Of a stretch of 43,082 bases of DNA, positions 4,088-24,210 are shown in pieces (the stretch's first letter is position 1; every line of letters starts with the position of its first letter). Where the stretch lies: positions 1 through 43,082 of the forward strand of contig JAQBVV010000011.1 of NCBI GenBank assembly GCA_027622905.1, written 5' to 3'. Made by a program: the position numbers and the translations under genes. This stretch comes from Acidobacteriota bacterium (GTDB taxonomy: Bacteria; Acidobacteriota; Vicinamibacteria; Vicinamibacterales; UBA2999). The notes under the pieces were generated by a model that made no database searches, was not told where the DNA came from, and saw only the letters and a list, made by a program, of their open reading frames with translations.

Positions 4088-4123
4088 ATGGCAGCCCCTC
4101 AAGATAGATTCCCGCATCGTCGA

Positions 4124-4522: not shown

Positions 4523-4621
4523 CCCACTACCCTCCAGAGCGAAACCGACCGTCGGCCTGCTCACTGTATCCACAGATCGAACCCGGTACTCTCATCAACG
4601 TCGCCGAATGTTCTTACCCAG

Positions 4622-5576: not shown

Positions 5577-5747
5577 GTCCGGCTCCCGAGTGAGCCACCG
5601 GCGGGCTCCCACTCACTTTGAACACCTACAGAAGAAGGTTGGTAGCACCGGACCAGCATCTTCGGGGCACCAACCCAGCATCGGGTCAGGAAAATCCCAC
5701 TAAGAATGCGCCGATCATGGACCGCTGTCAACTCGGCCAGATACCGT

Positions 5748-5774
5748 GGCCGTGGTCCACTTTAGACCACGGCC
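5748..5774. promoter_or_regulatory. 10-bp perfect palindrome upstream of the madL promoter
   Basis: GGCCGTGGTC (5748-5757) and GACCACGGCC (5765-5774) form a perfect inverted repeat around seven AT-rich bases. It ends 28 bp before the -35 box of madL, where an activator would bind. There is no U-run, so a terminator for the divergent gene is less likely. It is a candidate site for a malonate-responsive regulator, but no regulator gene lies nearby. Confidence 0.5.
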
Positions 5775-5802
5775 CCTGCCGCGGCGCACGCAGCCGCGCT
5801 CA

Positions 5803-5831
5803 TTGCCTAAAACCTGACAGCGGCATATCAT
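5803..5831 (+). promoter_or_regulatory. Promoter of madLM
   Basis: TTGCCT (5803-5808) and TATCAT (5826-5831) are separated by exactly 17 bp, a good match to a housekeeping sigma-70 promoter. Transcription would start near 5838, giving a leader of about 58 bases that contains GAGG nine bases before the madL ATG. Confidence 0.6.
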
Positions 5832-5895
5832 CCCCCCACTGCGGCGCGGACTCACAACGAAAAGCTGGACTCACAGCGAGCCGAGGCACACCAGA

Positions 5896-6297
5896 ATGAT
5901 CATCTACGGCGTGGCACTGCTGGCGACCTGCCTGGTGACGGGCATGATCGCGGGCGAATACCTCGGCGTCGCCATCGGCGTGGAGGCCAATGTCGGTGGG
6001 GTCGGCATTGCGATGCTGCTGCTCGTCATCGCCTGCAACATGGGCAGATTCAAGCTTCCGGTCGACGGTCCCTCAGGCGAGGGCATCAAGTTCTGGAGCG
6101 CGATGTACATCCCGATCGTTGTCGCCATGGCGGCGCGACAGAACGTGGTTGCGGCCGTTGACGGAGGGTTACTGGCCATCGTGGCTGGCGTCGCTGCTGT
6201 CGTCGTCAGCTTCGCGCTGGTACCCGTACTGAGCCGCATCGGTCGGAGCGGCCGAACCGCGCTGGCCGATACGGACGCTGGCGGAGTCACGCGCTAG
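5896..6297 (+). CDS. madL: Malonate transporter subunit MadL
   Basis: This 133-residue, very hydrophobic protein has about four membrane helices (roughly residues 3-22, 32-50, 68-84 and 92-113). Length, order and sequence (TGMIAGEYLGVAIGVEANVGGVGIAMLLLV, read across its first two helices) match MadL, the small subunit of the sodium-dependent MadLM malonate carrier. It brings malonate into the cell. The stop codon overlaps the GTG start of madM by one base (TAGTG), so the two are translationally coupled. A sigma-70 promoter and a palindrome lie upstream. Confidence 0.9.
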   Translation: MIIYGVALLATCLVTGMIAGEYLGVAIGVEANVGGVGIAMLLLVIACNMGRFKLPVDGPSGEGIKFWSAMYIPIVVAMAARQNVVAAVDGGLLAIVAGVAAVVVSFALVPVLSRIGRSGRTALADTDAGGVTR

Positions 6298-7055
6298 TGG
6301 ACACGCTGCTGACGACCCTTCGTGGCAACGGCCTGGTGTTCGCGTTCGCCGTGGTCGGTCTCACCGTGTGGATCTCCAACATGATCGCCGCCAGGTTCAC
6401 GGCGGGTCGGATTCACGGGTCCGCGATCGCGATCACGATCGGCCTGGTAGCGGCCTACGTCGGAGGCAGGTACACGGGCGGTGGCGCCGGTGTCGCCGAC
6501 ATCGGCGTCCTCGCGGGCGTGGGACTGATGGGCGGGGGCATGTTCCGGGATTTCGCCATCGTCTCGACTGCGTTCGGGGTCAAGGTTAGTGAGCTCAAGA
6601 AGGCGGGGACCGTCGGCGGGATCTCGATCGTTGCCGGGGTATTGGTGTCCTTCGTCGTGGGCGCCGGCGTCGCCGTGCTCTTTGGCTACACCGACCCCGT
6701 CGCGATCACCACGATCGGCGCTGGGGCCGCAACCTACATCGTCGGCCCCGTGACTGGAGCCGCGATCGGCGCCAGTTCCGAGATCATCGCGCTGAGCGTC
6801 GCAGCCGGCCTGGTCAAATCCATCCTGGTGATGATCGGTACGCCGATCGTGGCGAAGTTGATCGGCCTGGATAATCCGCAGTCAGCGATGGTCTTCGGTG
6901 GCCTGATGGGCACGACCAGTGGCGTTGCCGCCGGTCTGGCCGCGACGGACCCGAGGCTCGTGCCGTACGGTGCCATGACGGCCACGTTCTATACGGGGCT
7001 CGGCTGCTTGCTGGGTCCGTCGGTCTTGTTCTTAACAGTTGCGGCGATTTTCTAG
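6297..7055 (+). CDS. madM: Malonate transporter subunit MadM
   Basis: This 252-residue membrane protein has about seven or eight helices and matches the length and order of MadM, the larger subunit of the MadLM malonate:sodium symporter. Glycine-rich helical segments such as GVADIGVLAGVGLMGGGMFRDF and the C-terminal FGGLMGTTSGVAAGLAATDP are typical. The GTG start shares a base with the madL stop codon. Together with the CoA-transferase and malonyl-CoA decarboxylase at the left edge it forms a complete route from external malonate to acetyl-CoA, although those genes lie in a separate transcription unit. Confidence 0.9.
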   Translation: MDTLLTTLRGNGLVFAFAVVGLTVWISNMIAARFTAGRIHGSAIAITIGLVAAYVGGRYTGGGAGVADIGVLAGVGLMGGGMFRDFAIVSTAFGVKVSELKKAGTVGGISIVAGVLVSFVVGAGVAVLFGYTDPVAITTIGAGAATYIVGPVTGAAIGASSEIIALSVAAGLVKSILVMIGTPIVAKLIGLDNPQSAMVFGGLMGTTSGVAAGLAATDPRLVPYGAMTATFYTGLGCLLGPSVLFLTVAAIF

Positions 7056-7079
7056 GACAGCAGGTCAGGAGGACGTTCG

Positions 7080-8060
7080 ATGGTCAAGCGTTACACGATG
7101 CTAGCGGTGCTTGTCGCGGTGGTGGTTTCTGCGGTGCCGGCGCTGATCGTTGCCCAGCAACCAGCCCAGAGCGCCACCTCCGCGCTCGCGTCGGCACAGG
7201 AACTCCTGCCGTGGGCATTTCTCGTTGCCGCGCCAGGTCAACAACGAGCGGACGATGGCACGGTCAAGCGGCTTCCGGGGAGCACGCTGGGCTTTACAGT
7301 GCCCGAGATCAACGACCCGTTCGCACCACCGGATTGGTACCCCAACGATCATCCACCGATGCCGGAGATCGTGGCCCGGGGCAGAAACCCCGAGGTACGT
7401 GCCTGTTCGCAGTGCCACCTCCCGAACGGACTCGGACACCCGGAGTCGTCTGGCATGGCCGCACTCCCGGCGGCCTACATCGCTCAGCAGATGGCTGACT
7501 TCCGCGCTATCGACCGCAAGAACTCCGGCATCATGACGATCATCGCCAAGGGCATGACGGAGGCGGAGATCGCCGAGGCGGCGGCGTACTTCTCGAGCCT
7601 TCCGATGCAGCCGTGGACCAGGGTGGTCGAGACCGAGACAGTGCCTGAGACCTATGTCGGCCCCGGCAACATGCGTTTCGAGGTGCACGGGGGCGGCACC
7701 GAGCCGCTCGGGCAGCGGATTATCGAGGTCCCCGAAGATGCCGAACTCGCGGAGCTGCGCGACTCCCATTCGGGATTCGTCGCCTACGTGCCCATGGGCA
7801 GCATCAGGGCTGGCGAAGTCCTCGCCACGACGGGCGCGGACGTCCAGTGCGGCATCTGTCATGGCCCGGACTTGAGAGGCCGGGGCCCGATTCCCGGCAT
7901 CGCCGGTCGCTCGGCCGTCTACATCGCCAGACAGCTCTATAGTTTCCAGCATGGTCTTCGCGAGGGTGACTGGGCTCCGCTGATGTCGGAGGCCGTCGCC
8001 GACCTGTCCGTCGAGGACATCGTCGCGCTCTCTGCGTACGTGGCCTCGAGAACGCCGTAA
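7080..8060 (+). CDS. Di-haem cytochrome c, exported
   Basis: This 326-residue protein has an N-terminal signal peptide (to about residue 25) and two cytochrome c domains. The haem motifs are CSQCH (C109, C112, H113) and CGICH (C257, C260, H261). Likely axial methionines lie in GIMTIIAKGM and in the segment around PLMSEAVADL. The first domain is followed by about 60 residues of linker. AGGAGG stands nine bases before the ATG, the strongest ribosome binding site in this region. It lies 24 bases after madM, so it is probably cotranscribed with the malonate carrier, although there is no known need for a cytochrome in malonate use. The partner dehydrogenase is not in the window. Confidence 0.87.
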   Translation: MVKRYTMLAVLVAVVVSAVPALIVAQQPAQSATSALASAQELLPWAFLVAAPGQQRADDGTVKRLPGSTLGFTVPEINDPFAPPDWYPNDHPPMPEIVARGRNPEVRACSQCHLPNGLGHPESSGMAALPAAYIAQQMADFRAIDRKNSGIMTIIAKGMTEAEIAEAAAYFSSLPMQPWTRVVETETVPETYVGPGNMRFEVHGGGTEPLGQRIIEVPEDAELAELRDSHSGFVAYVPMGSIRAGEVLATTGADVQCGICHGPDLRGRGPIPGIAGRSAVYIARQLYSFQHGLREGDWAPLMSEAVADLSVEDIVALSAYVASRTP

Positions 8061-8955: not shown

Positions 8956-11502
8956 TCAAAACCTGAAGCGGATCCCGACGGTCGGCAGCCGGGGAATCGA
9001 CTGGTCGCGCGCTTCGACAAGACGGGGCCGGTCCGAGTCCGGATCGAACTCCAGCCGCGGCTCGTACGCACCAGCATTCTTGCGGTTCAACGCATTGATC
9101 ACTTCCGCGTACAACTCCCAACGCCCCGCGGCTCCGCGGGGCCGCCACGTGGCCCGCACGTCCACGCGGGCAAACATCGGCAGGCGCGCCTGGTTGAGAT
9201 TCGCTGTGGAACCGAAGTCCACGGCGTAGACCAGCCTCCCCTCGCCATCGACGTCCGGCACAAGTTCGCTGGTATCGCCATCGGCATCGACGTCATTGGC
9301 ATCTTCCGTGCCGGCCACCCTGATCCCGATCGGCGCGGTTCGCGGAAATCCGGAGGCCACCCGGATCGTCGATGCCAGTTCCCAGCGCGGCGTCAGCCGG
9401 TAGGACCCGACCATCGCGAACGCATGACGCCGGTCGTACTCGAACGCGTAGCGCCGACCGTACGCGTCCCGAACCGCCTTGCCCCAGGTGTAGCTGGCCC
9501 ACCCGTTCACGCGGGCATCCGACGGCACGCGCAACCGGGAGAGCAGCACGTCGAACCCGTAGGCCCGTCCGCGACCGTCGTTGCCCGGAATCGTCGTGAT
9601 GATCGGGTCGGTCGGCACACTGGATGTCAACGCCACCGGAAAGTCGTACTGCGCGACGCGCCTCCGCCGCGCAATCTCCGACTCGAGCTGTCCGAGGAGC
9701 AGGTCAGCGAAATACTTGTAGTAGCCTTCGACGCGCAGCGACGCGCCCAGGCCAAGGTCACGCTCGGCGCCGACCGAGCCGTGCCATGACTGCTCACTGC
9801 GCAGCTTGGCGACCGCTTCATCGGACAGATCCAGCACGTAGTCGCTCTGCGCCAGCTTCTCGTAGCCTGGGCTCTGCGTGTACCGCCCCACCGCGCCCGT
9901 CACGCGGGTCGCCGGTCCGAGGTCCAGCGAGACGGCCATCCTTGGCGACAACTGGGTTTCCCTGGTGATGCCCACACGGTCCACGCGCAGGCCTGCCTGA
10001 AGCACACCCCGCGAACCGACGTGCCACGTGTCCCGCAACCAGACACCACCCCGCGTCGAGCGGCGGAATGTGCTCAGTAAATCGGGAAGGCCCGCTCCGC
10101 CCTGCACGCTCGACCCATTGGCAGCTCCTGGATTCCGGTCGCCGGAGATCTCGAATCGGAGGCCGGTCGACAACCGGTGCACCTCTGCGCCAGCCTCCAC
10201 GACGTGCGTGGCAAAGGCCCAGGAGAATCCCTGGCGCACCGACAGGTCCTCCACCGTGAGTGCTCGCTCGAACACGACGTCAGACGCTCCGAACGTATCC
10301 TCAGCCGGCGCATTCGACCGACGGCTCGTGTTCTCGAACACGGCGTCCACGCCAAACGTGGACCGGGTGTCGGAGTACGCCACCACGGTGTGTGCGTGCC
10401 CCCGCGCTCCGATCAATGTCTCGATGCGCGCCCAGGCCAGATCGTTGTCCGTGTCGTCCTGGAACGTGCCACGCGCCGAATTCTGATCGATCTCCAGCGC
10501 CGCCGCCTGCCGACTCCGCAAACCGAAGACCGTCACCGTGCTCCTCGCGCTTGGCTCCCACACACCCTTGGCCTGCACATCGGCGAATCCCGGAAACTGC
10601 TGATCGGTGAAGCGCTCGGCGACCAGATCGTAATAGGTGCGACGTCCGGTCACGAGCCACGAACCCGCGACGTCGCCCGGCAGCGGACCTTCGAGCACGA
10701 CGTTGGCATCCGTGATACTGAGCGACGCCGACCCCGTCAGGCCGTCGTCCCGCCGGCCATCACGATTCTCGACGACCAGCAGCGACGACAGGCGGTCGCC
10801 GTACTCGACGCTGAATCCGCCTGTGGACAGTTCGAAACGCTGGATGGTCTCTGGATTGAACGCGGTCGTGAGACCGAACAGTCGGTAGGGATCGTGGACC
10901 TCGACTCCGTCCATGACAGTGAGGTTCTGATCGGGCGCCCCTCCTCGCACCGCGAGACGGCTTCCAAACTCCTCCGTCGCGGCCACGCCCGGGAGCGTCT
11001 GCAAGGTGCGAAAGATGTTGTCCGCCGCGCCCGGCGTGCGCAACACTTGCGACGGCTGCACGACCTCTGTGGCTGGCGCCGCGCCGGGCGCCGACGCCAC
11101 CACGTCCACCGATGTCGCGAACGAGGTATCGGGGGCGAGCGCCAGTTCGGTCTCGACCAGCCCCTCCACCCCCACGTCGAGCGTCGTCGTCAGAGAAAAG
11201 TATGCCGGAGCCTCGACCCGTACGACCACGCGGCCCCTCGGTACGACCAGCGAGAACCGTCCTTCAGCATCGGTGACGGCACGCGCCTCACCCGCGACGC
11301 CCTCGCCCACAGCCAGTACCACCGCGTCCGGGATCGCGGCACCCGTCTCCGCGTCAAGCACCCGTCCCTCCACCGCGACCGCCGGAGGCGCCTGCGCGAG
11401 AACCCGCACGGCACCGGGACAGACGAGGATCGCAAACGCCGCGACCAGTGACAGCAGGATACGCAGGGGTGTCACGCCGACGCCCGTGCAAAGACGGCGC
11501 AC
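8956..11502 (-). CDS. TonB-dependent outer-membrane receptor with carboxypeptidase-regulatory domain
   Basis: This 848-residue protein has a signal peptide (hydrophobic stretch at about residues 12-35). A carboxypeptidase-regulatory-like beta domain (about 44-115) contains VEGRVLDAETGAAIPDAVVLAV. The TonB plug follows (about 140-245; RTLQTLPGVAATEEFGSRLAVRGG and VMDGVEVHDPYRLFG), then a 22-strand-type barrel ending in the aromatic VGIRFRF. It would import a substrate, probably a metal complex given its neighbours, across the outer membrane using TonB energy. The GTG start at 11502 has AGGG six bases upstream and lies eight bases after the RND gene, making it the last gene of the operon. It is shorter than the roughly 1,000-residue Oar-type receptors common in acidobacteria. 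Confidence 0.92.
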   Translation of the reverse strand: MRRLCTGVGVTPLRILLSLVAAFAILVCPGAVRVLAQAPPAVAVEGRVLDAETGAAIPDAVVLAVGEGVAGEARAVTDAEGRFSLVVPRGRVVVRVEAPAYFSLTTTLDVGVEGLVETELALAPDTSFATSVDVVASAPGAAPATEVVQPSQVLRTPGAADNIFRTLQTLPGVAATEEFGSRLAVRGGAPDQNLTVMDGVEVHDPYRLFGLTTAFNPETIQRFELSTGGFSVEYGDRLSSLLVVENRDGRRDDGLTGSASLSITDANVVLEGPLPGDVAGSWLVTGRRTYYDLVAERFTDQQFPGFADVQAKGVWEPSARSTVTVFGLRSRQAAALEIDQNSARGTFQDDTDNDLAWARIETLIGARGHAHTVVAYSDTRSTFGVDAVFENTSRRSNAPAEDTFGASDVVFERALTVEDLSVRQGFSWAFATHVVEAGAEVHRLSTGLRFEISGDRNPGAANGSSVQGGAGLPDLLSTFRRSTRGGVWLRDTWHVGSRGVLQAGLRVDRVGITRETQLSPRMAVSLDLGPATRVTGAVGRYTQSPGYEKLAQSDYVLDLSDEAVAKLRSEQSWHGSVGAERDLGLGASLRVEGYYKYFADLLLGQLESEIARRRRVAQYDFPVALTSSVPTDPIITTIPGNDGRGRAYGFDVLLSRLRVPSDARVNGWASYTWGKAVRDAYGRRYAFEYDRRHAFAMVGSYRLTPRWELASTIRVASGFPRTAPIGIRVAGTEDANDVDADGDTSELVPDVDGEGRLVYAVDFGSTANLNQARLPMFARVDVRATWRPRGAAGRWELYAEVINALNRKNAGAYEPRLEFDPDSDRPRLVEARDQSIPRLPTVGIRFRF

Positions 11503-11509
11503 CGGAACC

Positions 11510-14500
11510 CTACGTGGTGGCGACCGTCGTGTCGCCTGCGCGCGTCTTCAGACGCCCGTATTTCAGATACAGCGTCGGCACGACGATCATGTTCAACAAC
11601 GTCGAGGTCGTCAGTCCGCACAGGATCACGATCGCCATCGGAGTCTGGATCTCGCTCCCCGCCTCGCCGCCTCGCAAGGCCAGCGGCATCAACGCCAGGG
11701 CCGACGCCATCGCCGTCATCAGGATGGGCACGAGACGTTCGTGCGCCGCTCGCTCCACCGCTGTCCGAAGGCTCGTCACCCCCTCCTCACGCACCAGGTG
11801 CTGGATGTGCGAGACCAGCATGATGCCGTTGCGGGTGGCAATGCCGAACAACGTGATGAACCCGATAATCGAGGCGATACTCAGAACCCCACCCGCCAGG
11901 AAGACGCCAGCCACCCCGCCGATGAGCGCCAGCGGCAGGTTCAGCATCACAAGCACCGCATCCCGGGCGCGCCCTAACGCGAGCACCAGCAGCATGAACA
12001 GGCCGGCCACGGCCGCGGCGCCCAGCACCAGCAGCGTTTCGGTCGCGCTCTCCTGGCTCTCGAACTGGCCACCGTACTCCACGCGGTATCCGTCCGGCAT
12101 CGGCACCTGCGCGGCCACGGCCGCCTGGATGTCTTCAACGACGCTACCGAGGTCGCGGCCCGCCACGTTGGACGACGCGACGATCCGGCGCTGCACGTTC
12201 TCGCGGAGAATCATGTTCGCGCCCATCTCCCGCCGCACGTCGGCCAGCACGCGAATCGGCACCGAATGGCCAGAGGGCGTGTCCACCGGCAGGTCGGCAA
12301 TCCGTTCGAAGTCAACGGCGGATTCGGCGTCGAATTTCACGACCAGGTCGAACGCGGTCGCGCGATCGAAGATCCGGCCGACCGTCGTGCCGGCGAAGCT
12401 GGTCTCGACCGCCTCGGCCACATCTTGAACGCGCAGCCCGTACTGCGCAATTGCCTGGCGGTTCAGCACGAAACGCACGAACGGGATCTCCGTCTGGGAT
12501 TCGAGCGTCAGGTCCGCCACGCCGTCCACGCCACTCATCGCATCCCGGACACGCTCACCGATGCGGCGCAACGTCACGAGATCGTCTCCGACAATCTTCA
12601 CGGCGATGTTCGCGCGCGTCCCTGACAGCATGTGGTCGATGCGATGAGAGATCGGTTGCCCGATCGCGACGTTGGTGCCGGGCAATCCAGCGAACCCCTG
12701 CCGCAGCGCCGCCAGGAACTCCTCGCGCGGACGCTCTCCGGCACGCAGGCCCACATCGATTTCGGCCGCTTCGACGCCCTGCACGTGCTCATCCAGTTCT
12801 GCGCGGCCGGTGCGCCGTGCCGTCGCGACGACCTCGGGCTGCGCCAGCAGAATCTGCTCGACACGCCGCCCGATCTCGTCGGACTTGTCCAGCGAGGTGC
12901 CTGGCATCGTGTTCGTGGTGATCGTCAGGCTCCCTTCCTGAAACTCGGGCAGAAACGCGGTGCCGAACCGCGTCATCGCCAGTCCAGCTCCCACCAGCAG
13001 CACCACCGAGATCGCGGTCACCACGCGCGGATGGTTGAGTGCGTACGGCAGTCCCCCGGCAAAGCGCGCCTTCAGCGTGCGGGCCAGCCACCCCTCGTGG
13101 CCCCGCACGATCGTGGCCGCGCGCGGCAGGAAGGCAAAGCACAATGCCGGTGTCACGACGAGCGCCACACCCAGCGACGCCATGAGCGCGACGATGTACG
13201 CGAACGCCAGCGGCGTCAGCAGGCGCCCTTCGACGCCGGTCAGCCCAAAGATCGGCAGAAACACCAGGACGATGATGACCGTGGCAAACACGATGGATGT
13301 CCGGATTTCGAGTGTGGCATCGCGCACGACAACCGCGGCCGAGCGGCGCTCGTCCGGCGGCAGTGCCGCGTTCAATCGGAGCCGGCGTACCACGTTCTCC
13401 ACGTCGATGATCGCGTCGTCAACAAGCACCCCGATCGCGATCGCCAGACCGCCCAGCGTCATGGTGTTGATCGTCACGCCGAAGCCCCGTAGCACGAGAA
13501 GCGCCGCGGCCAGGGAGAGCGGCATCGCCGTCAGCGTGATGGCCGCCGCGCGTGTGTTGGCCAGAAACAGGAGCACGACGGCGATGACCAGGAACGCGCC
13601 GTCGCGCAGCGCGTCGATCACGTTGTTGACGGCCACCTGGATGAAATCAGCCTGTCGGAAGATCCGGCGGTCGATCGTGATCCCCGGAGGGAGCTCAGCC
13701 TGCAGCGCATCGAGTTCACGGTCGAGCAGCGCCGTCACCTCGATCGTGTTCGCGCCGGGCTGCTTCTGGACGCCGACGATCACCGCAGGGGACCCGTTCC
13801 GCGACCCCTCTCCGCGTCTGAGCGCCGCACCTTCTCGCACCTCCGCCACATCCCGGATCAGCACCGACCGCGTGCCGCGCATCGCGACGACGCTATTGCC
13901 AATCTCGTCAACGGCGTTGGTGCGACCGATGACCTGCAGGACATACTCCTGCGGCCCCTCCGAGTAAATACCGGCCGACGCGTTCTGGCTGGCGCCGCGC
14001 GCCGCGTCGAGCAGTTCAGTGAGGGAGACATTGTTTGCCCGCAACGCGTCGGGATGCGCCACCACCTGGAACTGCCGCTCGGCACCACCGATTGGCGTCA
14101 CCTGCGAGACACCCGGCACGGCAAGCAGCCTTCGGCGAACAACCGTGTCGGCCAGCGTCCGCATCGTGAGCGGATCGACGCTCTCCGACGAAAGTGCGAA
14201 AAAGAGGATCTCGCCCATGATCGACGAGATCGGCGCCAGGACCGGCCGCTCGACTTGTGGTGGTAACGAGCCAGCCACGAGCGCCAGCTTCTCGGCCACG
14301 AGCTGGCGCGCGATGTAGATATCCTCGCCCCAGTCGAACTCAACCCAGATGACGCCGATCCCCACCGCGCTCGCGGAGCGGACGCGGCGCACGCCAGACG
14401 CGCCGTTGAGGGCACTCTCGATCGGAAAGGTCACCAACGATTCCATCTCTTCGGGCGCCATCCCGTTGCCTTCCGCGAGAATCGTCACCGTGGGTGCGGT

Positions 14501-14623
14501 GAGGTCCGGGAACACGTCGACCGGCATGTCGCGAGCCGTCCAGGCCCCCGCTGCAAGCAGGAGGACCGACAACGCAAACACGATCCCGTGATGGTCGATC
14601 GACCATTGGATGAGGCGTTTCAT
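11510..14623 (-). CDS. Heavy-metal-type RND efflux pump, inner-membrane subunit
   Basis: This 1037-residue protein has the twelve-helix RND layout: helix 1 at 12-30, a large periplasmic loop (31-335), helices 2-6 (336-480), helix 7 near 525-545, a second loop (545-860), and helices 8-12 (862-1025). The heavy-metal branch is shown by VFPDLTAPTVTILAEGNGMAPEEME and by the acidic TM4 motif GVLVDDAIIDVEN, which carries the proton-relay aspartates. At the position of the CusA copper/silver ligand Met573 (LLYMPSTLPG) this protein has TITTNTMPG, so it lacks that methionine and is probably not a copper/silver pump. The substrate remains unknown. It starts one base after the adaptor stop codon, so the two genes are coupled. 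Confidence 0.93.
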   Translation of the reverse strand: MKRLIQWSIDHHGIVFALSVLLLAAGAWTARDMPVDVFPDLTAPTVTILAEGNGMAPEEMESLVTFPIESALNGASGVRRVRSASAVGIGVIWVEFDWGEDIYIARQLVAEKLALVAGSLPPQVERPVLAPISSIMGEILFFALSSESVDPLTMRTLADTVVRRRLLAVPGVSQVTPIGGAERQFQVVAHPDALRANNVSLTELLDAARGASQNASAGIYSEGPQEYVLQVIGRTNAVDEIGNSVVAMRGTRSVLIRDVAEVREGAALRRGEGSRNGSPAVIVGVQKQPGANTIEVTALLDRELDALQAELPPGITIDRRIFRQADFIQVAVNNVIDALRDGAFLVIAVVLLFLANTRAAAITLTAMPLSLAAALLVLRGFGVTINTMTLGGLAIAIGVLVDDAIIDVENVVRRLRLNAALPPDERRSAAVVVRDATLEIRTSIVFATVIIVLVFLPIFGLTGVEGRLLTPLAFAYIVALMASLGVALVVTPALCFAFLPRAATIVRGHEGWLARTLKARFAGGLPYALNHPRVVTAISVVLLVGAGLAMTRFGTAFLPEFQEGSLTITTNTMPGTSLDKSDEIGRRVEQILLAQPEVVATARRTGRAELDEHVQGVEAAEIDVGLRAGERPREEFLAALRQGFAGLPGTNVAIGQPISHRIDHMLSGTRANIAVKIVGDDLVTLRRIGERVRDAMSGVDGVADLTLESQTEIPFVRFVLNRQAIAQYGLRVQDVAEAVETSFAGTTVGRIFDRATAFDLVVKFDAESAVDFERIADLPVDTPSGHSVPIRVLADVRREMGANMILRENVQRRIVASSNVAGRDLGSVVEDIQAAVAAQVPMPDGYRVEYGGQFESQESATETLLVLGAAAVAGLFMLLVLALGRARDAVLVMLNLPLALIGGVAGVFLAGGVLSIASIIGFITLFGIATRNGIMLVSHIQHLVREEGVTSLRTAVERAAHERLVPILMTAMASALALMPLALRGGEAGSEIQTPMAIVILCGLTTSTLLNMIVVPTLYLKYGRLKTRAGDTTVATT

Positions 14624-14624
14624 A

Positions 14625-16190
14625 TCAGTGCAAGTGCCCTTCCGCCGGCAACCCGCCGGCCGCTGAAGCGAGCTGGACGTCGTAGGCCCCCAGGGTCACG
14701 ACGCGCTCGCCCGGTTGCACGCCCGCGCGCACCCCGACCAGGTCCCCGTCCCTCACGCTGATCTCGATAAATCGCCTGGCGAAACTCTCGCCACCCGTTT
14801 GGACGAACACGTAGGGACGTCCCGCCTCGGTCAGCACGGCTTCCTTCGGCACAGCCGGCATCCGCTCGCGCGCGCCGGTGTAGAGGACCGCCGTCGCCAT
14901 CTGACCGATCAGGAGTTGCCCTGCTCGGTTGTCGACGTCGAACTGGACGGGCAGCGCTCGCGTCACAGGGTCGATCACGCCCGCGTCATGCATGTCGTCC
15001 GCCTCGACGACGAGCGGCTCGGCCCGGCCCGGGATCTCGAGCGCGATCTCGGTCACGTCTCGAATCAGCGGCGCATCGGAGGCCGGCACGTGCGCCTGCA
15101 ACTCGACGCGGTCTGTGCGGATAATCCTGAAGAGCGGTGCGCCTTCGTCGTAGGACGCGCCGAGCGCCGCGAACACGGCGGCAAGCCGCCCGGCGATCGG
15201 GGCACGCAGCACGAACGAGTTACCGGATGCGGAGCCGCCCCCGGTCGTCAGGGTCTCATCCCGCTGCGCGAGACGCGCCTCGGCCGCGACGAGACGCGCC
15301 GCCGCTATCGTGGAGGCCCGCCGGGCTTCCTCCACCCGCCGCGCAGGCACGGCGCGTTCCACGAGGAGTCCCTCGGCACGCGCCAGGTCTGCTGCTGCAG
15401 CGTCCACCTCCGCCTGGGCCTCCGCCGCGGCCGCCACCAGCGTTGCGCGGTCGGCGCCAGCGTCTCCCAGCCGAGGCTGGATGCGCCCGAGTTCCTGTCC
15501 CGGTCGCACGCGGTCACCAACCCCCAGAAGCGTCTCGGCCATGAACCGGCCGTCGGCCGGCGCGCCCACGATGGCCTCGCCGCCGGTCAGCGGCTCGATG
15601 ATCGCAGGGACGCGAATGCCGCGGCGCATTTCGGCTTCTTCCACGATTGCCGTCGCGAACCCGATGGTCCACTGCGGCTCCTTCAGGTAGGTGATGGCAC
15701 TCGGGTCGTCCTCAGCCCTGGCCTCCGCATCGGCGACGCCCGCCGCCTGATCCGCGAACACCGTGACGGGGCCGAGATCGTGGCGGTCTACGAGATCCGG
15801 CGCCTCGATGACGAGCGACCAGCGATAGCTGCCGGCCGGCGGCGGAGCGCCGAGCACCCGGTACACGCCAGGCCGCGACGCCTCCTCTCCTTGCAATACG
15901 GCAGGTGGTCCTCCCGACTCGGGCGTGAACTCTATTCGCGGCCGCCCCGTGGTCATCGCCGAGAAGTTACTCAGGCGCGTGAGGTGCACCGCGAACAGCA
16001 CCTCTTCTCCGGCGACGAGCGGTGCGTACTCCATGAACAGCTCGGTCGCCTCTGTCCAGGCCGTGACGTCGAGCGTTGGCAATTCGGCCTCCGGCTCGTC
16101 CTCGACTCCTACTCCGCCGCCGCACGCGGCCATCGAAAGAGCGACGAGTACGCCTGTCAGGCCCCTCCCGATCGTGGTGATGCGCTTCAT
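14625..16190 (-). CDS. RND periplasmic adaptor lipoprotein with an extra N-terminal domain
   Basis: This 521-residue membrane-fusion protein links the RND pump to the TolC-like channel. A lipoprotein-type signal ends at C23 (LSMAACGGG). Residues 45-145 form an additional beta domain (LVAGEEVLFAVHLTRLSNF, then GVYRVLGAPPPAGSYRWSL) resembling the FixH/YtkA type, absent from short adaptors. The adaptor proper starts near 185: RVPAIIEPLTGGEAIVGAPADGRF with two half-lipoyl strands, a coiled-coil hairpin (245-310, Ala/Glu/Arg rich), then beta-barrel and membrane-proximal domains to the end. The last residues GHLH could bind metal. GGGAG five bases before the ATG fixes the start, whose ATGA overlaps the tolC-like stop. 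Confidence 0.9.
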   Translation of the reverse strand: MKRITTIGRGLTGVLVALSMAACGGGVGVEDEPEAELPTLDVTAWTEATELFMEYAPLVAGEEVLFAVHLTRLSNFSAMTTGRPRIEFTPESGGPPAVLQGEEASRPGVYRVLGAPPPAGSYRWSLVIEAPDLVDRHDLGPVTVFADQAAGVADAEARAEDDPSAITYLKEPQWTIGFATAIVEEAEMRRGIRVPAIIEPLTGGEAIVGAPADGRFMAETLLGVGDRVRPGQELGRIQPRLGDAGADRATLVAAAAEAQAEVDAAAADLARAEGLLVERAVPARRVEEARRASTIAAARLVAAEARLAQRDETLTTGGGSASGNSFVLRAPIAGRLAAVFAALGASYDEGAPLFRIIRTDRVELQAHVPASDAPLIRDVTEIALEIPGRAEPLVVEADDMHDAGVIDPVTRALPVQFDVDNRAGQLLIGQMATAVLYTGARERMPAVPKEAVLTEAGRPYVFVQTGGESFARRFIEISVRDGDLVGVRAGVQPGERVVTLGAYDVQLASAAGGLPAEGHLH

Positions 16191-17407
16191 GGAATCTCCC
16201 ATCCGCTCACGAATTCAAGCTCGATTTCCGCTTCCCTCACCGCGCGGTCGAGCGTGGTCTGACGCACGCGCGCCGACGCGCCGACGCGATAGGCGTCCAG
16301 CAGTTCGAGTATGCCGCGCTCCCCGGCGTCGTAACTGACGAGCGCGATCCGCTCGATCTCCTCGGCGTTGGCTGTCACGGCCGTGCGGTAGCCGGCCGCA
16401 CTGTCGCGCCGGGCCATCAGCGTGTCGCGCCATCCGGCGATCTGCGCGCGCAGGTCAAGTCGAAGCCGCTCCGTCTCCGCGCGAACCTGCGCCGCGCGCG
16501 CCACGGCGGCCGCGCGTTCGGGCCTGGCGCGGTCGAAGAGTGGCACGCTGACATGCACGCTCACCACGGTCCCGATGTCTCCTGTCCCGGCATTGGACGA
16601 CTTCGTACCCGCCACCAGCTCAGGCTCGGGAAGAGCCCGGCGCCCTGCTGCACGTTCAGCCAACGCGGCGGCCTCAAGTTCGTGCCCGAGCGCAAGGAGT
16701 GCGGGCCGCGCTGCCTCGGCCCGAACGATCAGCTCCCCCAGCGGCGGCGGAATCTGCGCCTGTCGTACGGTTGCCACGGCTTCCACGATCCCGTCAGGTG
16801 CCGATGGAAAGAAACTCACCAGCGCCGCCTGAGCGCGTGCCCGCTCGGTTGCTGCGGCGGCACGGTCGGCCTCGACGTCGATCGCCTCGCGGTCGGCCCG
16901 TAGTCGATCGAATCCAGCGGACTCGCCAGCGGCCTCCCTGCGTCCGAGCACCTCGGCCAGATCACGAAGGCGATCTCTGCTGCGGACCAGTTCACGTTCC
17001 CTGGTCTGGGCTGCCCAGAGATCCGAGAATGCCAGCCTGAGGTCGGCGCGAAGGCGACGAATCTCGTCATCGACCCGGCTGCTGACGGCCTCGACCCGCT
17101 GCGAGGCCGCGCGCACATCGAGACCGCGACGCCCGGTCAGGGGCAGCACCTGAGAGATCAAGAACATGTTCTCCGAGACGCCGACGACCGACTCGCGGTT
17201 GTACGTCAACCGCGGATTCGGCCATCGCCCGGCGGCCAGGACCTCCGCGCGTGCGACGTCGACCGCCGCGAGGACAGCCTGCACGCGCGGACTCTCGATC
17301 GAGAGTCGCGCCAGCGCCTGCGATTCCGTCAGGGACAACGTTTGAGCACCGACGCCGACCGGCAGGAGCACGCCAGCAAGCGTGGCGCACGCAACAAGCA
17401 CGCGCAT
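16187..17407 (-). CDS. TolC-family outer-membrane efflux channel
   Basis: This 406-residue protein matches the outer membrane channel of RND pumps (OEP/TolC family). It has a signal peptide (MRVLVACATLAGVLLPVGVGA) followed by LSLTESQALARL, then two repeats of long Ala/Arg/Glu-rich helices with the family phrase WPNPRLTYNRE. The start at 17407 is preceded by GAGGTG; the open frame continues upstream to 17737 but that part is Arg/Pro-rich and lies opposite or beside the His-rich gene, so it is not coding here. The stop codon overlaps the adaptor start by four bases. The order channel-adaptor-pump is typical of CzcCBA/CusCBA operons. Confidence 0.9.
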   Translation of the reverse strand: MRVLVACATLAGVLLPVGVGAQTLSLTESQALARLSIESPRVQAVLAAVDVARAEVLAAGRWPNPRLTYNRESVVGVSENMFLISQVLPLTGRRGLDVRAASQRVEAVSSRVDDEIRRLRADLRLAFSDLWAAQTRERELVRSRDRLRDLAEVLGRREAAGESAGFDRLRADREAIDVEADRAAAATERARAQAALVSFFPSAPDGIVEAVATVRQAQIPPPLGELIVRAEAARPALLALGHELEAAALAERAAGRRALPEPELVAGTKSSNAGTGDIGTVVSVHVSVPLFDRARPERAAAVARAAQVRAETERLRLDLRAQIAGWRDTLMARRDSAAGYRTAVTANAEEIERIALVSYDAGERGILELLDAYRVGASARVRQTTLDRAVREAEIELEFVSGWEIP

Positions 17408-17465
17408 AACACCTCGAATGGGAAAAAGAGAAACAGGCAGACGGCGACGACGCCGTCGAGTCAGA

Positions 17466-17873
17466 TCAGGACAGAAAGGGGGGCGGGGCGCGGGATCCGG
17501 TCGACGAGAGACTCGGGGGGTCGTGACCGTGGACCACGCGAAGCGGGTCATGCGCAGCCGCTTCGGCCGGCACCTCGACATCCACGGACGCGACCACGGC
17601 CGGCGGCACATCGAACGAGGCTTGCGCCACCGCGACAAACAACTGCAACGAGACGGCGCCCTCGGACTCGCGATCGTCAAGCTCCACCCCCCCGGGGACC
17701 ACGCCGTCGCGCGGTCCGTGCCCGTGGGTATGCCCACCCCAGTGCGCGTGAATCTCAGGCGCGTCGTGGTGATCCGTACCGACCAGAGGCGAATGCGCGT
17801 GCAGGAGCGGTGCGCTGAGTGCGCCGAGGGGGATGGCGAGCGACAGAGTGACGGCCGTCAGTGCCCTGCGCAT
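17466..17873 (-). CDS. Exported His-rich protein, probable metal binder
   Basis: This 135-residue protein has a signal peptide (MRRALTAVTLSLAIPLGALSA), then a histidine-rich stretch (HAHSPLVGTDHHDAPEIHAHW followed by GGHTHGHG), then a hydrophobic/valine-rich segment and a short His pair (VVHGHD). About a dozen histidines in 40 residues suggest binding of a divalent metal such as nickel, cobalt or zinc in the periplasm. The ATG at 17873 fits the signal peptide but has GGAGG only one base away. A GTG at 17930 overlaps the previous stop codon and could be used instead. No family recognised. It sits between the membrane-anchored protein and the channel gene in the metal operon. Confidence 0.7.
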   Translation of the reverse strand: MRRALTAVTLSLAIPLGALSAPLLHAHSPLVGTDHHDAPEIHAHWGGHTHGHGPRDGVVPGGVELDDRESEGAVSLQLFVAVAQASFDVPPAVVASVDVEVPAEAAAHDPLRVVHGHDPPSLSSTGSRAPPPFLS

Positions 17874-17926
17874 GCCTCCATTCTTCGTGACTGGAGACGA
17901 GGCAGTCAAGTTGAAATCCCGCGATC

Positions 17927-18550
17927 TCACTGAAACATCTTGTTGATGACCGGCAGCCCGGTGCGGAACTCATGCGAGAGGTTGTAGAAACCCGCGGCGG
18001 TGAGCGTCACCGTGATCGGCTCATCGCTTAGATTCTCCCAGAACCACCCGTGAATGCCGGAAAAGGGCGCGGTCAGTGTGCCGGACGCCTGGCTCATGCC
18101 ATTCCGGAGTTCGTAGCTCTGCGCGTAGCCCTGAGGCGCGCCATCGGGCTCGGCGTGCAGTTCGTAGTTCACGGGGCCCGTCGCGGTCCAGCTATACAGC
18201 AGCGCCTCCCCCTGGTCGAGGCGATACTTGTACTCCATGCCTTCCCCGGCCGCCACGATGAACTCGACCGTTTCCTCCTGATAGCCCCGTTCCTGCGGAA
18301 CGATGATGGCAGCCTGGCCGGCGCCGGTGCCGGTCTCCTGTGCCGCAGCCTCAAGAGCGGCAACCTGCTGCCCCACGACACCGAGCTCCACAAGTCCGAC
18401 ACGAGCCCCGGTCCCCAGCGGATCGACACCGTACTCGGCTGGCAGCACGAACATCACGAGCACGAGGCCCGCCACCAGCAGCGCCGCCGCCGCCGCAACG
18501 GCGATGCGAGACCGGATGTCCGCGACCCCCACCTGTGCGTCATCGCTCAT
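17927..18550 (-). CDS. Single-pass membrane-anchored protein, HupE-associated
   Basis: This 207-residue protein has one N-terminal membrane helix (about residues 15-38), a short helical linker, and a periplasmic beta domain. Phrases such as LYSWTATGPVNYELHAEPDG and TAPFSGIHGWFWENLSDEPITV are of a type I recall being annotated only as transmembrane anchor protein. Tryptophan and aromatic residues are frequent. It starts four bases after the HupE-like gene, and its stop (TGA at 17927-17929) overlaps a possible GTG start of the next gene. Its role is unknown; position suggests it works with the permease. Confidence 0.75.
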   Translation of the reverse strand: MSDDAQVGVADIRSRIAVAAAAALLVAGLVLVMFVLPAEYGVDPLGTGARVGLVELGVVGQQVAALEAAAQETGTGAGQAAIIVPQERGYQEETVEFIVAAGEGMEYKYRLDQGEALLYSWTATGPVNYELHAEPDGAPQGYAQSYELRNGMSQASGTLTAPFSGIHGWFWENLSDEPITVTLTAAGFYNLSHEFRTGLPVINKMFQ

Positions 18551-18554
18551 GGCG

Positions 18555-19265
18555 TCACACCGCTGCCAGGAAATATCCGGACAGCTGATAGCCGACCAGG
18601 AGAAAACCACACGCCATCACCACGGCGTTGGTCGCAAACGCATGCTGAAGAAAGCCGCCTCGCGTTCGCCAGTAGCTCAGCCCGATGAGAATGCCCATCA
18701 GCGCCAGGCCCTGCCCGATCTCGACCCCGACGTTGAAGCTGATGATGTTGGCGACCAGACCGCTGGACGCCAGCTCGAACTCCTGGAGTTTCGTCGCCAG
18801 GCCGAATCCGTGGAACAGGCCGAACACCAGGACGGCCAGTCGCGTGTCCGGCTGAACACCGAAGAACCGTCTGAACCCGTCCATGTTCTCGAACGCCTTG
18901 TACACCACCGAAAACCCGATGACCGCGTCGATGATGTAGGGGTTGGCATGCACGCCTCCCAGTACGCCGACCAGCAGCGTCACGCTGTGCCCGAGGGTGA
19001 ACAGGCTGACGTACAGCAGCACGTCCTTCGTCCTGTAGAGAAAGAAGATCACGCCGACGAGGAACAGCAGGTGGTCGTACCCGGTGACCATGTGCTTGGC
19101 ACCCAGGTACATCAGCGCGCCTATGGCCCGGCCGTCGAGTCCCTGCAGGAACACTGCATCCTTGCCAGACACGCCGTGGGCCTCGAGCCCGATCGAACAG
19201 AGCGGCAGCACCATGAGGAGCGCCGCAAGAAGCCGAACCCGTCTATTGCCGCTGATACTGTGCAT
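18555..19265 (-). CDS. HupE/UreJ-family membrane protein, probable metal permease
   Basis: This 236-residue protein has a signal-like N-terminus and about six or seven membrane helices. The family landmarks are clear: HMVTGYDHLLFLVGVIFFLYR, LFTLGHSVTLL, VFGLFHGFGLA and SFNVGVEIGQ, each with conserved His, Asp or Glu in the membrane. HupE and UreJ proteins move nickel or cobalt for hydrogenase or urease, but no hydrogenase or urease gene is in this window, so here it is probably an envelope metal transporter linked to the RND system. The ATG at 19265 overlaps the cytochrome gene by 23 bases. It has no clear ribosome binding site, so translational coupling is likely. Confidence 0.88.
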   Translation of the reverse strand: MHSISGNRRVRLLAALLMVLPLCSIGLEAHGVSGKDAVFLQGLDGRAIGALMYLGAKHMVTGYDHLLFLVGVIFFLYRTKDVLLYVSLFTLGHSVTLLVGVLGGVHANPYIIDAVIGFSVVYKAFENMDGFRRFFGVQPDTRLAVLVFGLFHGFGLATKLQEFELASSGLVANIISFNVGVEIGQGLALMGILIGLSYWRTRGGFLQHAFATNAVVMACGFLLVGYQLSGYFLAAV

Positions 19266-19746
19266 GGCAGTCGTCGCAGGTTGTGTTGATGTCCACACCG
19301 ATCGCGAGAATCCCTTCGACGTCCTGAGCCTCGGCCGCATTGAGGGCGGTCGTGCCCGCGTCGATCATCGCCCGGGTGATCGTGAGCCAGTCACCGTCGT
19401 CCACGGCACGGTCGCCGAGCAGGAGCAGATTACCGGACTCGACCAGCGCCGCGGCGCTGTTGCCGATCACGGCCCATTCCTCGTCGGTTTGCGGAAGGAT
19501 TTCTTCAACGCCCTCGGCCGTGACGATGTACCCCACGGCGTTGTACACCACCGTCGCGGCAGGCCCCGTGATGCCGTCCATGATCTGTTTGACGCTGGCG
19601 ACCGGCTCGGCTACCGGGCCGCTGCTAACCGGGACGGCCATCCTGGTCGCGCGCGCACCCGCGATCACGAAGCCAATGCCGCTGATAAACAGCGCAGCGC
19701 TCACGACCAGCATCCACTGCACAATCCGCATGGTTCTCATGTCCAT
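19243..19746 (-). CDS. Membrane-anchored mono-haem cytochrome c
   Basis: This 167-residue protein has one N-terminal membrane helix (about residues 8-27) followed by an all-helical periplasmic domain. A single haem motif CDDCH (C157, C160, H161) lies at the very C-terminus, as in class II cytochromes c/c'. It is the first gene of the metal operon. Three in-frame ATG codons (19746, 19740, 19731) are possible. A TAGAAC box at 19748-19753 on this strand, seven bases before the one at 19740, would favour a leaderless start there. Its role beside a HupE permease is unclear: electron transfer to metal, or metal/redox sensing. Confidence 0.78.
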   Translation of the reverse strand: MDMRTMRIVQWMLVVSAALFISGIGFVIAGARATRMAVPVSSGPVAEPVASVKQIMDGITGPAATVVYNAVGYIVTAEGVEEILPQTDEEWAVIGNSAAALVESGNLLLLGDRAVDDGDWLTITRAMIDAGTTALNAAEAQDVEGILAIGVDINTTCDDCHAQYQRQ

Positions 19747-19903: not shown

Positions 19904-20467
19904 CTACGTGCGCAACGTGACGAGCGCCGCCGTCCAGCGATGTAACTCGTCGAACATCGCGTCGGCGGCCTTGTCGTGCCGTTCGTTCGCCGCGAAGGCT
20001 CCCGACTCGTCGATCGCCTGCGCCACGAACGGAATCGGCACGGCCTCGACGATCGGGACGATCTTGAGCGCGGCGAGGGACTGCTTGGTCATCTGCACCG
20101 CCCGGATGCCGGCCGAGACGCCTCCGTAGCTGACAAATGACGCCGCCTTGTAGTTCCACTCGGAATATAGATAGTCGAACGCATTGACCAGCGCGGGAGC
20201 TGTCCCGTGGTTGTATTCCGGCGTGACGAACACGAAGGCATCGGTACCGCCCACGACCTCGCCCCAGGCCTTCTGCTTCTCGTTGTCGTACTCGCCGAAG
20301 CGCGGATGCTTTCGCTCGGCCAACATCGGCAGGTCCAGCTCTTTCAGATCGATCAGGTGCACGTCGAATCGCCCGTGTCGCCGGGCACGTGCGGCGCACC
20401 ATTGCCCCACCGGGAGACCCACGCGACCCTCACGCACGCTCGCCACGACGATCCCGAGTGAAAACAT
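19904..20467 (-). CDS. NAD(P)H-dependent FMN reductase
   Basis: This 187-residue flavodoxin-fold protein belongs to the NADPH-dependent FMN reductase family (chromate/azo/quinone-reductase like). The phosphate-binding loop is GIVVASVREGRVG near the N-terminus, and the flavin-contacting motif is VTPEYNHGTAPALVNAFDYL (about residues 80-99), followed by KAASFVSYGGVSAGIRA. It reduces flavins or quinones in the cytoplasm with NAD(P)H. It follows the secreted orphan gene at 20475 by seven bases and is probably cotranscribed with it. AGGGACC precedes the ATG. Confidence 0.92.
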   Translation of the reverse strand: MFSLGIVVASVREGRVGLPVGQWCAARARRHGRFDVHLIDLKELDLPMLAERKHPRFGEYDNEKQKAWGEVVGGTDAFVFVTPEYNHGTAPALVNAFDYLYSEWNYKAASFVSYGGVSAGIRAVQMTKQSLAALKIVPIVEAVPIPFVAQAIDESGAFAANERHDKAADAMFDELHRWTAALVTLRT

Positions 20468-22629: not shown

Positions 22630-24210
22630 TTACGCGCTCACCCGGCGGGCGCGCAGACGCTCGACAGCGCGTGTGACTTTTCCGCGTAGCCACGTCCAGC
22701 CAACAATCACCGAGGTCAGACTGAGCGCCAGTCCACCAAGACTCAACCCGATGATCGCCGGGTACCACACCCATGGTCGCTGATAGAGCCACGGGACATC
22801 GAGGCTGTGAAGCCCCTGGTACAGCCAGCGCTCGGCGCGGCTTCCTCGCACCTCGGCCTGCACGAGTGAGCCGTCCTGCGAGTCGAGATACAGCCACGTG
22901 CCGGCCTCGTCGTTGAACGTCGCCCGCAGGACCGTTGCTCGCCTTCCACGCCCGCGCTGGTAGTAGTAGGCGTCGCCGTCGGTCAACCAGGTCACATCGA
23001 GCGTCGGTGCTCCGCCCATCGCTGCGCGAGCGGCCGCGACGAGTTCCTCCAGCGAGAATCCGTCCTTGACGCGCGGGGCCGGCGTGTCCGCGCTGACCAG
23101 CACGCGGGACAGGCCTGCGGCAGGCGTCATCTCCGCCGCGCTGTTCGGTGACGGGTCATCAGGCGCGCGCGCGGGCACGTCGATCGCGTAGAACGGCGCG
23201 CCCATGAACTGCAACAGCTCCACTTCCCTGGGCTGATACCGCCGCTGCAGTTCGACCAGCGCCGCCGACGGAGCCACGGTGAACCGATCGAGCAGCACGC
23301 CTTCGCCGCGAATCGCTTGTATCTGGGCCAGCGTTGGCCCTCCCTGTGGAAACAGATTCCAGGGCGACATCGTCAACAATCCGCTGAAGACCCACGTGAA
23401 CGCGAACACGCCGAACGCGAGGCCGGCGTAGTGGTGCCAGCGCATCCAGCCGACATACGGCGTGATCGACGTGCCACGCCTGTAGCGTCCGGTGACCGAG
23501 AATCGGTAGACGCCGACGATCAGGCCCAGCAGGCACACCAGGCACCCGACCACCGAGCCGTAGATGATGAGATCGCTCCACAGCGGGCCCCGCCCTGCGC
23601 GAAGCGGCGTGAAATAGAACCAGTGCATCACCGGGCCGGCGTACCCCCACAGCCGACTCGACCGGTCGGTCTTCATGACGATGTCGCCGGTGGCTTCGGC
23701 CACGTAGACGTCGGTGCCAGCGACATCGCCAAGGGCGATGCGATGCAGCGCGCCGGTCACGCGAAACGGGTTACCGATCGTCCACTGATCGGGCTCGTCC
23801 AGCGCACCACGATAGCGGGCGGACTGGCGGCTTTCCGGAAACGCTCCCGCCGCGATCGCCACGGCGGCCTGCGCGTCCACCGTATCCACGTAGTCCCCGG
23901 TTTCCGCGGAGACGGTCGCCGACCCACGATCGACGACGAATCGATAGACGGGCCTCGCGTTCAGCGACGTCAGGAAGACGCGCCGCGGCGCATCCCCGAG
24001 GCCCGCCGCCTCCAGCGCCTCCGAGGGCGTGAGACGGATGGCGGCGGCGTTCAGCGGCGGTAAACGCGAGAGCCGCTCCTGCATCGAGTACTCAGGCATT
24101 CGCTTGAACACCATCACGATGCCTGAGGCGAACCAGATGATGAAGATCAGGCAGAACGCCACACCCAGGTAGCGGTGCACGTACATGAGCGCCTGGATGG
24201 CTCGCTTCAT
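22630..24210 (-). CDS. PepSY-domain membrane protein
   Basis: This 526-residue protein belongs to the PepSY-associated TM family. Helix 1 (about 12-35) starts with the typical HRYLGVAFCLIFIIWFASGIVMVF. A periplasmic PepSY domain follows (55-120). Two central helices contain GPVMHWFYFTPL and VGCLVCLLGLIVGVYRF, then WMRWHHYAGLAFGVFAFTWVFSGL. A second periplasmic part (285-470) ends in the tryptophan-rich GLHSLDVPWLYQRPWVWYP before the last helix. Histidines in the helices could hold haem. Relatives are often linked to siderophore reduction or iron uptake; that link is not shown here. GAGGGT lies before the ATG. No adjoining gene is in the same operon. Confidence 0.88.
   Translation of the reverse strand: MKRAIQALMYVHRYLGVAFCLIFIIWFASGIVMVFKRMPEYSMQERLSRLPPLNAAAIRLTPSEALEAAGLGDAPRRVFLTSLNARPVYRFVVDRGSATVSAETGDYVDTVDAQAAVAIAAGAFPESRQSARYRGALDEPDQWTIGNPFRVTGALHRIALGDVAGTDVYVAEATGDIVMKTDRSSRLWGYAGPVMHWFYFTPLRAGRGPLWSDLIIYGSVVGCLVCLLGLIVGVYRFSVTGRYRRGTSITPYVGWMRWHHYAGLAFGVFAFTWVFSGLLTMSPWNLFPQGGPTLAQIQAIRGEGVLLDRFTVAPSAALVELQRRYQPREVELLQFMGAPFYAIDVPARAPDDPSPNSAAEMTPAAGLSRVLVSADTPAPRVKDGFSLEELVAAARAAMGGAPTLDVTWLTDGDAYYYQRGRGRRATVLRATFNDEAGTWLYLDSQDGSLVQAEVRGSRAERWLYQGLHSLDVPWLYQRPWVWYPAIIGLSLGGLALSLTSVIVGWTWLRGKVTRAVERLRARRVSA

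Follow-up and report, generated by a model that had tools for sequence, protein, structure and literature searches.

Do a HupE-type permease and a heavy-metal efflux pump that share one gene row belong to a single system and, if so, which metal is handled and in which direction is it moved? The question is raised by positions 8956-19746 of the 43,082-nucleotide stretch of Acidobacteriota DNA analysed here (contig JAQBVV010000011.1, hereafter the window), where eight minus-strand genes encode, in this order, a cytochrome c, a HupE permease, a membrane anchor protein, a His-rich exported protein, a TolC-type channel, a periplasmic adaptor, a pump of the resistance-nodulation-division (RND) superfamily and a TonB-dependent receptor. 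The reading that we prefer, to which we give slightly less than an even chance, is that of a two-stage, two-membrane detoxification system for a divalent metal, most likely nickel or cobalt, in a Vicinamibacteria-type Acidobacteriota soil bacterium, with the HupE-anchor pair feeding the RND pump. HupE would carry the metal through the inner membrane into the periplasm, where the anchor, tethered beside HupE and predicted to have a GOLD fold, and the His-rich protein could accept the ion or buffer it. The RND-adaptor-TolC assembly would then take over the periplasmic ion via a His-containing site and expel it through the outer membrane by proton antiport, and the membrane cytochrome, together with a flavin reductase encoded upstream, could act as redox accessory.

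Gene content and linkage of the two halves

A previous reading made from the letters of the DNA (hereafter the sequence-only reading) had described eight minus-strand genes of named families that together handle metal, and both statements are supported by the positions of the open reading frames and by domain searches. The pump and the adaptor pass curated heavy-metal models: the former matches ACR_tran (PF00873) and the CusA/CzcA model TIGR00914 (729.9 bits, cut-off 701.45), and the latter TIGR01730 (123 bits, cut-off 94.9). The adaptor and a TolC-type channel (OEP, PF02321, E=4.3e-28) are encoded beside the pump, whose fourth transmembrane helix (TMH4) carries AIGVLVDDAIIDVEN, with acidic residues for proton antiport, and is conserved in the clade.

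The linkage of the two halves was followed among genomes of the family and order to which the window belongs; RND orthologues (full-length proteins of at least 77% identity) are present in 15 of 59 of them, the window's included. An anchor gene lies within 8 kb of the pump in 8 of the 14 other loci, seven of which hold the full cytochrome-HupE-anchor block in one of three arrangements: in the window's order (L138, L139, L142), divergent from the His-protein-TolC-adaptor-RND row (L143, L144, L147) or directly behind the RND gene (L145). In the remaining one, L149, the anchor stands behind the RND gene and the contig ends inside the adaptor; a second anchor is found behind the RND gene in L138, L142, L143, L144 and L147. 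Since these genomes of 2-6 Mb mostly hold 1 to 5 anchors, chance linkage within 8 kb is estimated to be on the order of 2% per genome. Within this family, the HupE half and the RND half are thus linked more often than chance would allow, and the lack of co-occurrence in relatives that would have spoken against the sequence-only reading was not observed. Among the six unlinked loci, two (L137, L141) are uninformative, as the pump genes lie at the very border of their contigs, and four (L136, L140, L146, L148) contain the RND-TolC-adaptor set without the trio. No HupE-anchor block accompanies the more distant RND homologues of about 57% identity (L134, L135, L151-L155).

Gene starts were corrected by comparison with relatives before the junctions were measured. 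The genes of the row and its two upstream neighbours are as follows.

19243-19746, minus strand: membrane-anchored class II cytochrome c, with C-terminal CDDCH and an invariant Met56
18555-19265, minus strand: HupE_UreJ_2 permease (PF13795), with motifs HX5DH and FNxGVExGQ
17927-18550, minus strand: "transmembrane anchor" protein, with an N-terminal transmembrane helix and a predicted periplasmic GOLD-fold beta-sandwich
17466-17873, minus strand: His-rich exported protein with a C-terminal RAPP motif; orthologues at the same place in relatives
16187-17407, minus strand: TolC-type outer-membrane channel of the pump (PF02321), start corrected by homology
14625-16202, minus strand: RND periplasmic adaptor lipoprotein, above the TIGR01730 cut-off
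11510-14623, minus strand: CusA/CzcA-family RND pump, above the TIGR00914 cut-off, with the TMH4 stretch given above, DEHVQGVE and HRIDH
8956-11502, minus strand: TonB-dependent receptor (CarboxypepD_reg and Plug), a bystander not conserved with the unit
19904-20467, minus strand: NADPH-dependent FMN reductase (PF03358), upstream neighbour, kept with the unit in L138, L139 and L142
20475-21128, minus strand: orf217, upstream neighbour, an exported 217-aa protein of no known family, kept in L139 and L142

The description of these genes as mostly overlapping or separated by fewer than ten bases holds at five of the seven junctions (cytochrome/HupE, -23 bp; HupE/anchor, 4 bp; TolC/adaptor, -16 bp; adaptor/RND, 1 bp; RND/receptor, 7 bp) and fails at the two that flank the His-rich gene (53 bp on the anchor side and 58 bp on the TolC side). 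As to the borders, the eight genes stand and both ends shift, as the receptor is not conserved and the two upstream neighbours are retained in some relatives; because of this retention, the unit may start near 21128. A promoter and terminator scan gave no signal above chance, and Rfam and tRNA feature searches gave no match. In the relatives, the position behind the RND gene is taken by a phosphodiesterase-like gene in L136 and L139, and a 1-Cys peroxiredoxin located further on is a shared neighbour in L136, L139, L145 and L147.

The metal and the direction of transport

By its defining features the pump is an ordinary heavy-metal RND protein. The absence of an equivalent of CusA Met573, pointed out in the sequence-only reading, was confirmed by pairwise alignment, in which M573, M623 and M672, the three-methionine metal site of CusA (Cu/Ag, HME4), are all replaced, by T, A and H, respectively. 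The TMH4 signature DFG-DGA-VEN of the heavy-metal efflux (HME) classes HME1 and HME2 (PMC3637150), to which CzcA, CnrA and NccA belong, is not present in the window's pump, which reads AIG-DDA-VEN instead. The stretches DEHVQGVE and HRIDH are invariant across the orthologues. In NieA of Cupriavidus, for which nickel efflux is itself only proposed, HRLDH and HAEGVH were put forward as nickel ligands (PMC7060636); the former, in the proximal metal site, is matched by HRIDH, and the counterpart of the latter is HVQGVE in all orthologues, with the first His kept and the last replaced by Glu. In motif the pump is closest to the NieA-like HME5 group; this class comprises both the nickel pump NrsA and a copper pump of Synechocystis (PMC7060636).

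Relatives of the anchor are carried by 383 plasmid records, and 17 plasmid regions, chosen for diversity and not at random, were read. HupE and the anchor occur together in nearly all of them, and ten contain a CsoR/RcnR-type repressor, in most cases with nickel/cobalt exporters (RcnA/NcrC, NreB/NcrA-type major facilitator proteins, cation diffusion facilitators). On pTTS12 of Pseudomonas putida S12, a metal-sensing repressor is divergent from a His-rich protein-HupE-anchor row, with no other exporter inside the block. A CzcCBA-type pump lies directly before the HupE block in five regions (L086, L087, L091, L159, L163), and the RND proteins beside HupE-anchor on the Sphingomonas, Shewanella and Glaciecola plasmids show the DFG-DGA-VEN signature. 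HupE-anchor is thus found united with no fewer than two RND classes, which suggests that the parts are tied by function and were not inherited as a single operon. In Sphingobium sp. ba1, 10 mM nickel strongly induces a cluster with HupE (IL54_0275), a channel-adaptor-pump (CBA) set and NreB, IL54_0275 being the most nickel-induced gene (PMC5557971). The expectation that HupE beside an efflux pump is unusual was not upheld, as plasmids of Shewanella, Glaciecola, Sphingomonas and Acinetobacter share the pairing with this cluster. Small His-rich exported proteins with C-terminal R(A)PP are also encoded on plasmid copies (L085, L086, L088, L090, L092); their similarity to the window's protein is short and could be due to convergence.

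Taking together the plasmid nickel/cobalt genes, the nickel-induced Sphingobium cluster and the NieA-like RND motifs, nickel or cobalt is the most likely metal by analogy; among nickel, cobalt and zinc, named in the sequence-only reading, the first two are best supported, by association. As for the direction, CsoR/RcnR repressors release their genes under metal excess, and a HupE-anchor pair placed beside them and derepressed by excess metal is easier to read as an exporter. The absence of hydrogenase and urease from the locus, noted previously, extends to the whole genome (97% complete), in which neither nickel hydrogenase (PF00374) nor urease (PF00449) is found. This counts for export, as there is no such enzyme that would need import, and a role of the locus in supplying nickel to either was rejected. 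Altogether, export by HupE has about an even chance.

Several observations weigh against a nickel/cobalt export line. Nickel import is the activity known from those HupE/UreJ proteins that have been studied. Plasmids of Massilia, Novosphingobium and Indioceanicola combine HupE-anchor with DUF4198, and those of Massilia and Novosphingobium add a siderophore-type TonB receptor, an arrangement that would fit import. The window's genome lacks any CsoR/RcnR-type repressor (PF02583), so that the regulation seen on plasmids is not transferable to the window and a regulator of this type was rejected for its locus. In the majority of its copies the trio stands without a pump in the vicinity. Finally, a DUF1775 (YcnI-type) gene lies directly behind the RND gene, followed by a second anchor, in six relatives (L138 at 5135-6527, L142, L143, L144, L147, L149), pointing to copper. 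In some relatives this set also comprises a DUF5666-like gene, and L144 has a second HupE-anchor pair.

The best of the alternatives, although rather unlikely in our judgement, is a copper system in which the pump and the cytochrome-HupE-anchor trio handle Cu(II)/Cu(I), and the cytochrome and the flavin reductase change the redox state of the metal. Besides the DUF1775 genes, whose relative YcnI binds Cu(II) (PMC8424229), it is favoured by the copper pump within HME5, by a HupE-anchor pair beside CopC/CopD/multicopper oxidase on a Massilia plasmid and by the conservation of a redox-active cytochrome. The replacement of the three CusA methionines argues against it, as do the lack of the DUF1775 set in the window's locus and the dominance of nickel/cobalt associations on plasmids.

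Less probable again is that HupE-anchor imports metal to the cytoplasm for uptake or sequestration and the RND pump separately clears the periplasm, co-location of the two providing set-point control. The known HupE/UreJ uptake facilitators and the DUF4198 plasmids agree with this, and the Sphingobium authors interpreted HupE in terms of accumulation (PMC5557971); the recurrent position of HupE-anchor near excess-metal repressors and exporters, and a genome devoid of nickel hydrogenase and urease, speak instead for the two-stage efflux system. It is improbable that the two halves are unrelated neighbours sharing a locus: the trio is free-standing in most genomes and four relatives hold the RND-TolC-adaptor set without it, but linkage in eight of 14 loci and in three gene orders contrasts with the low chance estimate, and the unions with another RND class on plasmids appear to be independent.

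The TonB receptor, in turn, is very improbable as a working import arm. In favour of this role, it lies on the same strand 7 bp past the RND stop, and unrelated TonB receptors are found near HupE-anchor in Massilia and Novosphingobium. Against it, none of the 14 other loci has the receptor next to the pump, the Massilia and Novosphingobium receptors show no similarity to it, and its six closest orthologues (about 64-68%) lie beside pyrimidine or cytochrome-oxidase assembly genes (gene names read from the sequences). The receptor, which the sequence-only reading had assigned to the unit as its own, was therefore rejected as a conserved part of it; in the window's genome it may be co-transcribed.

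The cytochrome-HupE-anchor module

When the anchor protein was searched against 84,980 species genomes, 80 loci were obtained, mainly from Acidobacteriota and Gammaproteobacteria and usually in the order cytochrome-HupE-anchor, with a HupE homologue in 78 and a cytochrome homologue in 63 of them. Of the 47 loci flanked by 5 kb or more on each side, only 2 show an RND gene; in Acidobacteriota and marine Gammaproteobacteria the trio is therefore a self-contained module, mostly without any pump.

The permease matches HupE_UreJ_2 (PF13795; E=1.3e-52, 178.1 bits, cut-off 24.5) and gave no match to the PF04955 models. Of the two motifs that we take to mark HupE/UreJ nickel permeases, HX5DH is present in 76 of the 80 relatives, in the window as HMVTGYDH, and FHGx[AV]HGxE in none of the 80, the window's protein reading FHGFGLAT at that place. 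The generalization that HupE accompanies hydrogenase or urease consequently applies to HupE/UreJ proper and not to this PF13795 protein.

The anchor, often annotated as hypothetical, belongs to no Pfam or NCBIfam family, and a PDB sequence search with it gave no match. An AlphaFold2 model built with 56 relatives shows a long N-terminal helix and a beta-sandwich, with a predicted local distance difference test score mostly above 95 in the domain. Eukaryotic GOLD domains are ranked first by Foldseek and VIA-align: the top five matches are p24 GOLD domains (Z 10.7-12.4), led by TMED1 (Z 12.4, 1.9 A over 94 residues), and other p24, SEC14-like and ACBD3 GOLD domains follow, all above unrelated rows. 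The anchor is thus predicted to be a membrane-tethered GOLD fold, its periplasmic domain spanning residues from about 88 to 207. Identity to GOLD domains is about 13%, and the similarity in the models is one of shared fold, showing neither common descent nor function. Invariant residues of the anchor include GIHGWxWxN, H132, E106, K108, W121, H167 and W169. A literature search on a "transmembrane anchor protein" with HupE, and on bacterial GOLD domains, found nothing specific.

For the cytochrome, a profile search gave matches to cytochrome c' and a PDB sequence search weak matches to the same proteins; PF01322 matches 18 of 36 homologues, the window copy itself not among them. The assignment to class II relies on the profile and on the model, a four-helix bundle with a membrane helix and a C-terminal CXXCH, in the window CDDCH. 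The invariant Met56, near the start of the bundle, is a possible axial ligand. In several gammaproteobacterial cytochromes a lipobox cysteine replaces the membrane helix.

From these data a bolder hypothesis can be formulated, which we consider possible though unlikely: cytochrome c, HupE and GOLD anchor would constitute an undescribed redox-coupled metal permease complex across Acidobacteriota and marine Gammaproteobacteria, with the p24-like GOLD domain as the regular periplasmic subunit of HupE, and at least two independent unions of HupE-anchor with RND pumps would have given rise to cytoplasm-to-outside metal export lines. Although such pairs are frequent on resistance plasmids, neither Pfam nor NCBIfam has an entry for the anchor. 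With the anchor as the regular partner of HupE and two RND unions at hand, a role in nickel/cobalt (or copper) tolerance is directly testable, and a widespread module that stands alone and is frequent among marine bacteria is now set apart from the pump and the TonB receptor.

Other features were noted around the module. In marine Gammaproteobacteria the motif TTAGkGCAGACTttgc occurs about 140-290 bp before the cytochrome match (L026, L027, L029, L031, L033, L035, L036, L039, L041-L045, L049, L050, L057-L059, L066, L074, L081, L084), with an expectation-maximization log-likelihood ratio of 187 against 76 in shuffled sequence, a signal part of which may be explained by genome relatedness. L043 holds a second GCAGACT copy, and no regulator could be assigned to the motif in this gammaproteobacterial upstream search. 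Upstream of the module, 29 gammaproteobacterial loci (e.g., L041:7298-8527) have a divergent gene for a 409-aa exported protein with a CACC motif, possibly a beta-propeller, without a Pfam match. A DUF6152 gene and a gene of an unnamed "PDLsGxW" family are convergent neighbours downstream of the anchor in 45-46 loci, among them most gammaproteobacterial copies of the module; in the window they occupy 3209-4573, about 4.4 kb past the TonB receptor, the 3209-4117 protein being assigned to the "PDLsGxW" family by eye. PepSY_TM proteins, possible membrane reductases, are encoded near the RND locus (window 22630-24210, L138:1765-3447, L150:686-2218) and near the anchor in seven gammaproteobacterial loci. 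Window positions 5896-8060 contain MadL and a gene taken, from its sequence and position, to be the usual partner of MadL (the two being malonate transporter subunits), followed by a gene for a cytochrome c with two heme-binding domains.

Comparison with known systems

In its combination of parts the locus varies a known type of metal-detoxification system, and its least known part is the cytochrome-HupE-GOLD module. The anchor resembles the p24/TMED GOLD proteins of eukaryotes in the predicted fold of its periplasmic domain and in having a single transmembrane helix. It differs from them in its low identity, in the position of this helix (N-terminal in the anchor, C-terminal in p24), in the lack of a p24-family Pfam match among the 56 anchor members and in its bacterial metal context. 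With the HupE/UreJ nickel permeases of hydrogenase and urease clusters, the window's permease shares the HX5DH motif and a polytopic architecture; it is distinguished from them by its PF13795 family, the missing FHGx[AV]HGxE, a regular GOLD-fold partner and a genome without either nickel enzyme.

NieIC-cep-NieBA of Cupriavidus neocaledonicus STM 6070 (HME5, proposed class 6; PMC7060636) is similar in its CBA set and in HRxDH in the region of the proximal metal site, whereas no HupE-anchor-cytochrome is reported there, NieA has HAEGVH in place of HVQGVE, and the window has no "cep" between the C and B genes. The NcrABC and RcnA-RcnR nickel/cobalt resistance islands of Klebsiella, Raoultella and E. 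coli plasmids have HupE-anchor inside or beside them; RcnA, NreB and an RcnR-type repressor are missing from the window, and the genome as a whole lacks the last. Similar too are the nickel-induced operon 63 described from Sphingobium sp. ba1 (PMC5557971) and its plasmid kin in Sphingomonas paucimobilis (L086), Shewanella baltica (L087), Glaciecola (L091) and Acinetobacter (L159, L163), which combine a HupE_UreJ_2-type permease with a CBA heavy-metal RND set. The plasmid kin have the anchor after HupE, and small His-rich proteins are found in Sphingobium and L086. These systems differ from the window in the RND class of L086, L087 and L091 (DFGLxVDGAxIIVEN), in the absence of an annotated cytochrome, in the NreB and CsoR/RcnR- or BlaI-type regulator that several of them carry, and in a gene order in which the pump comes first.

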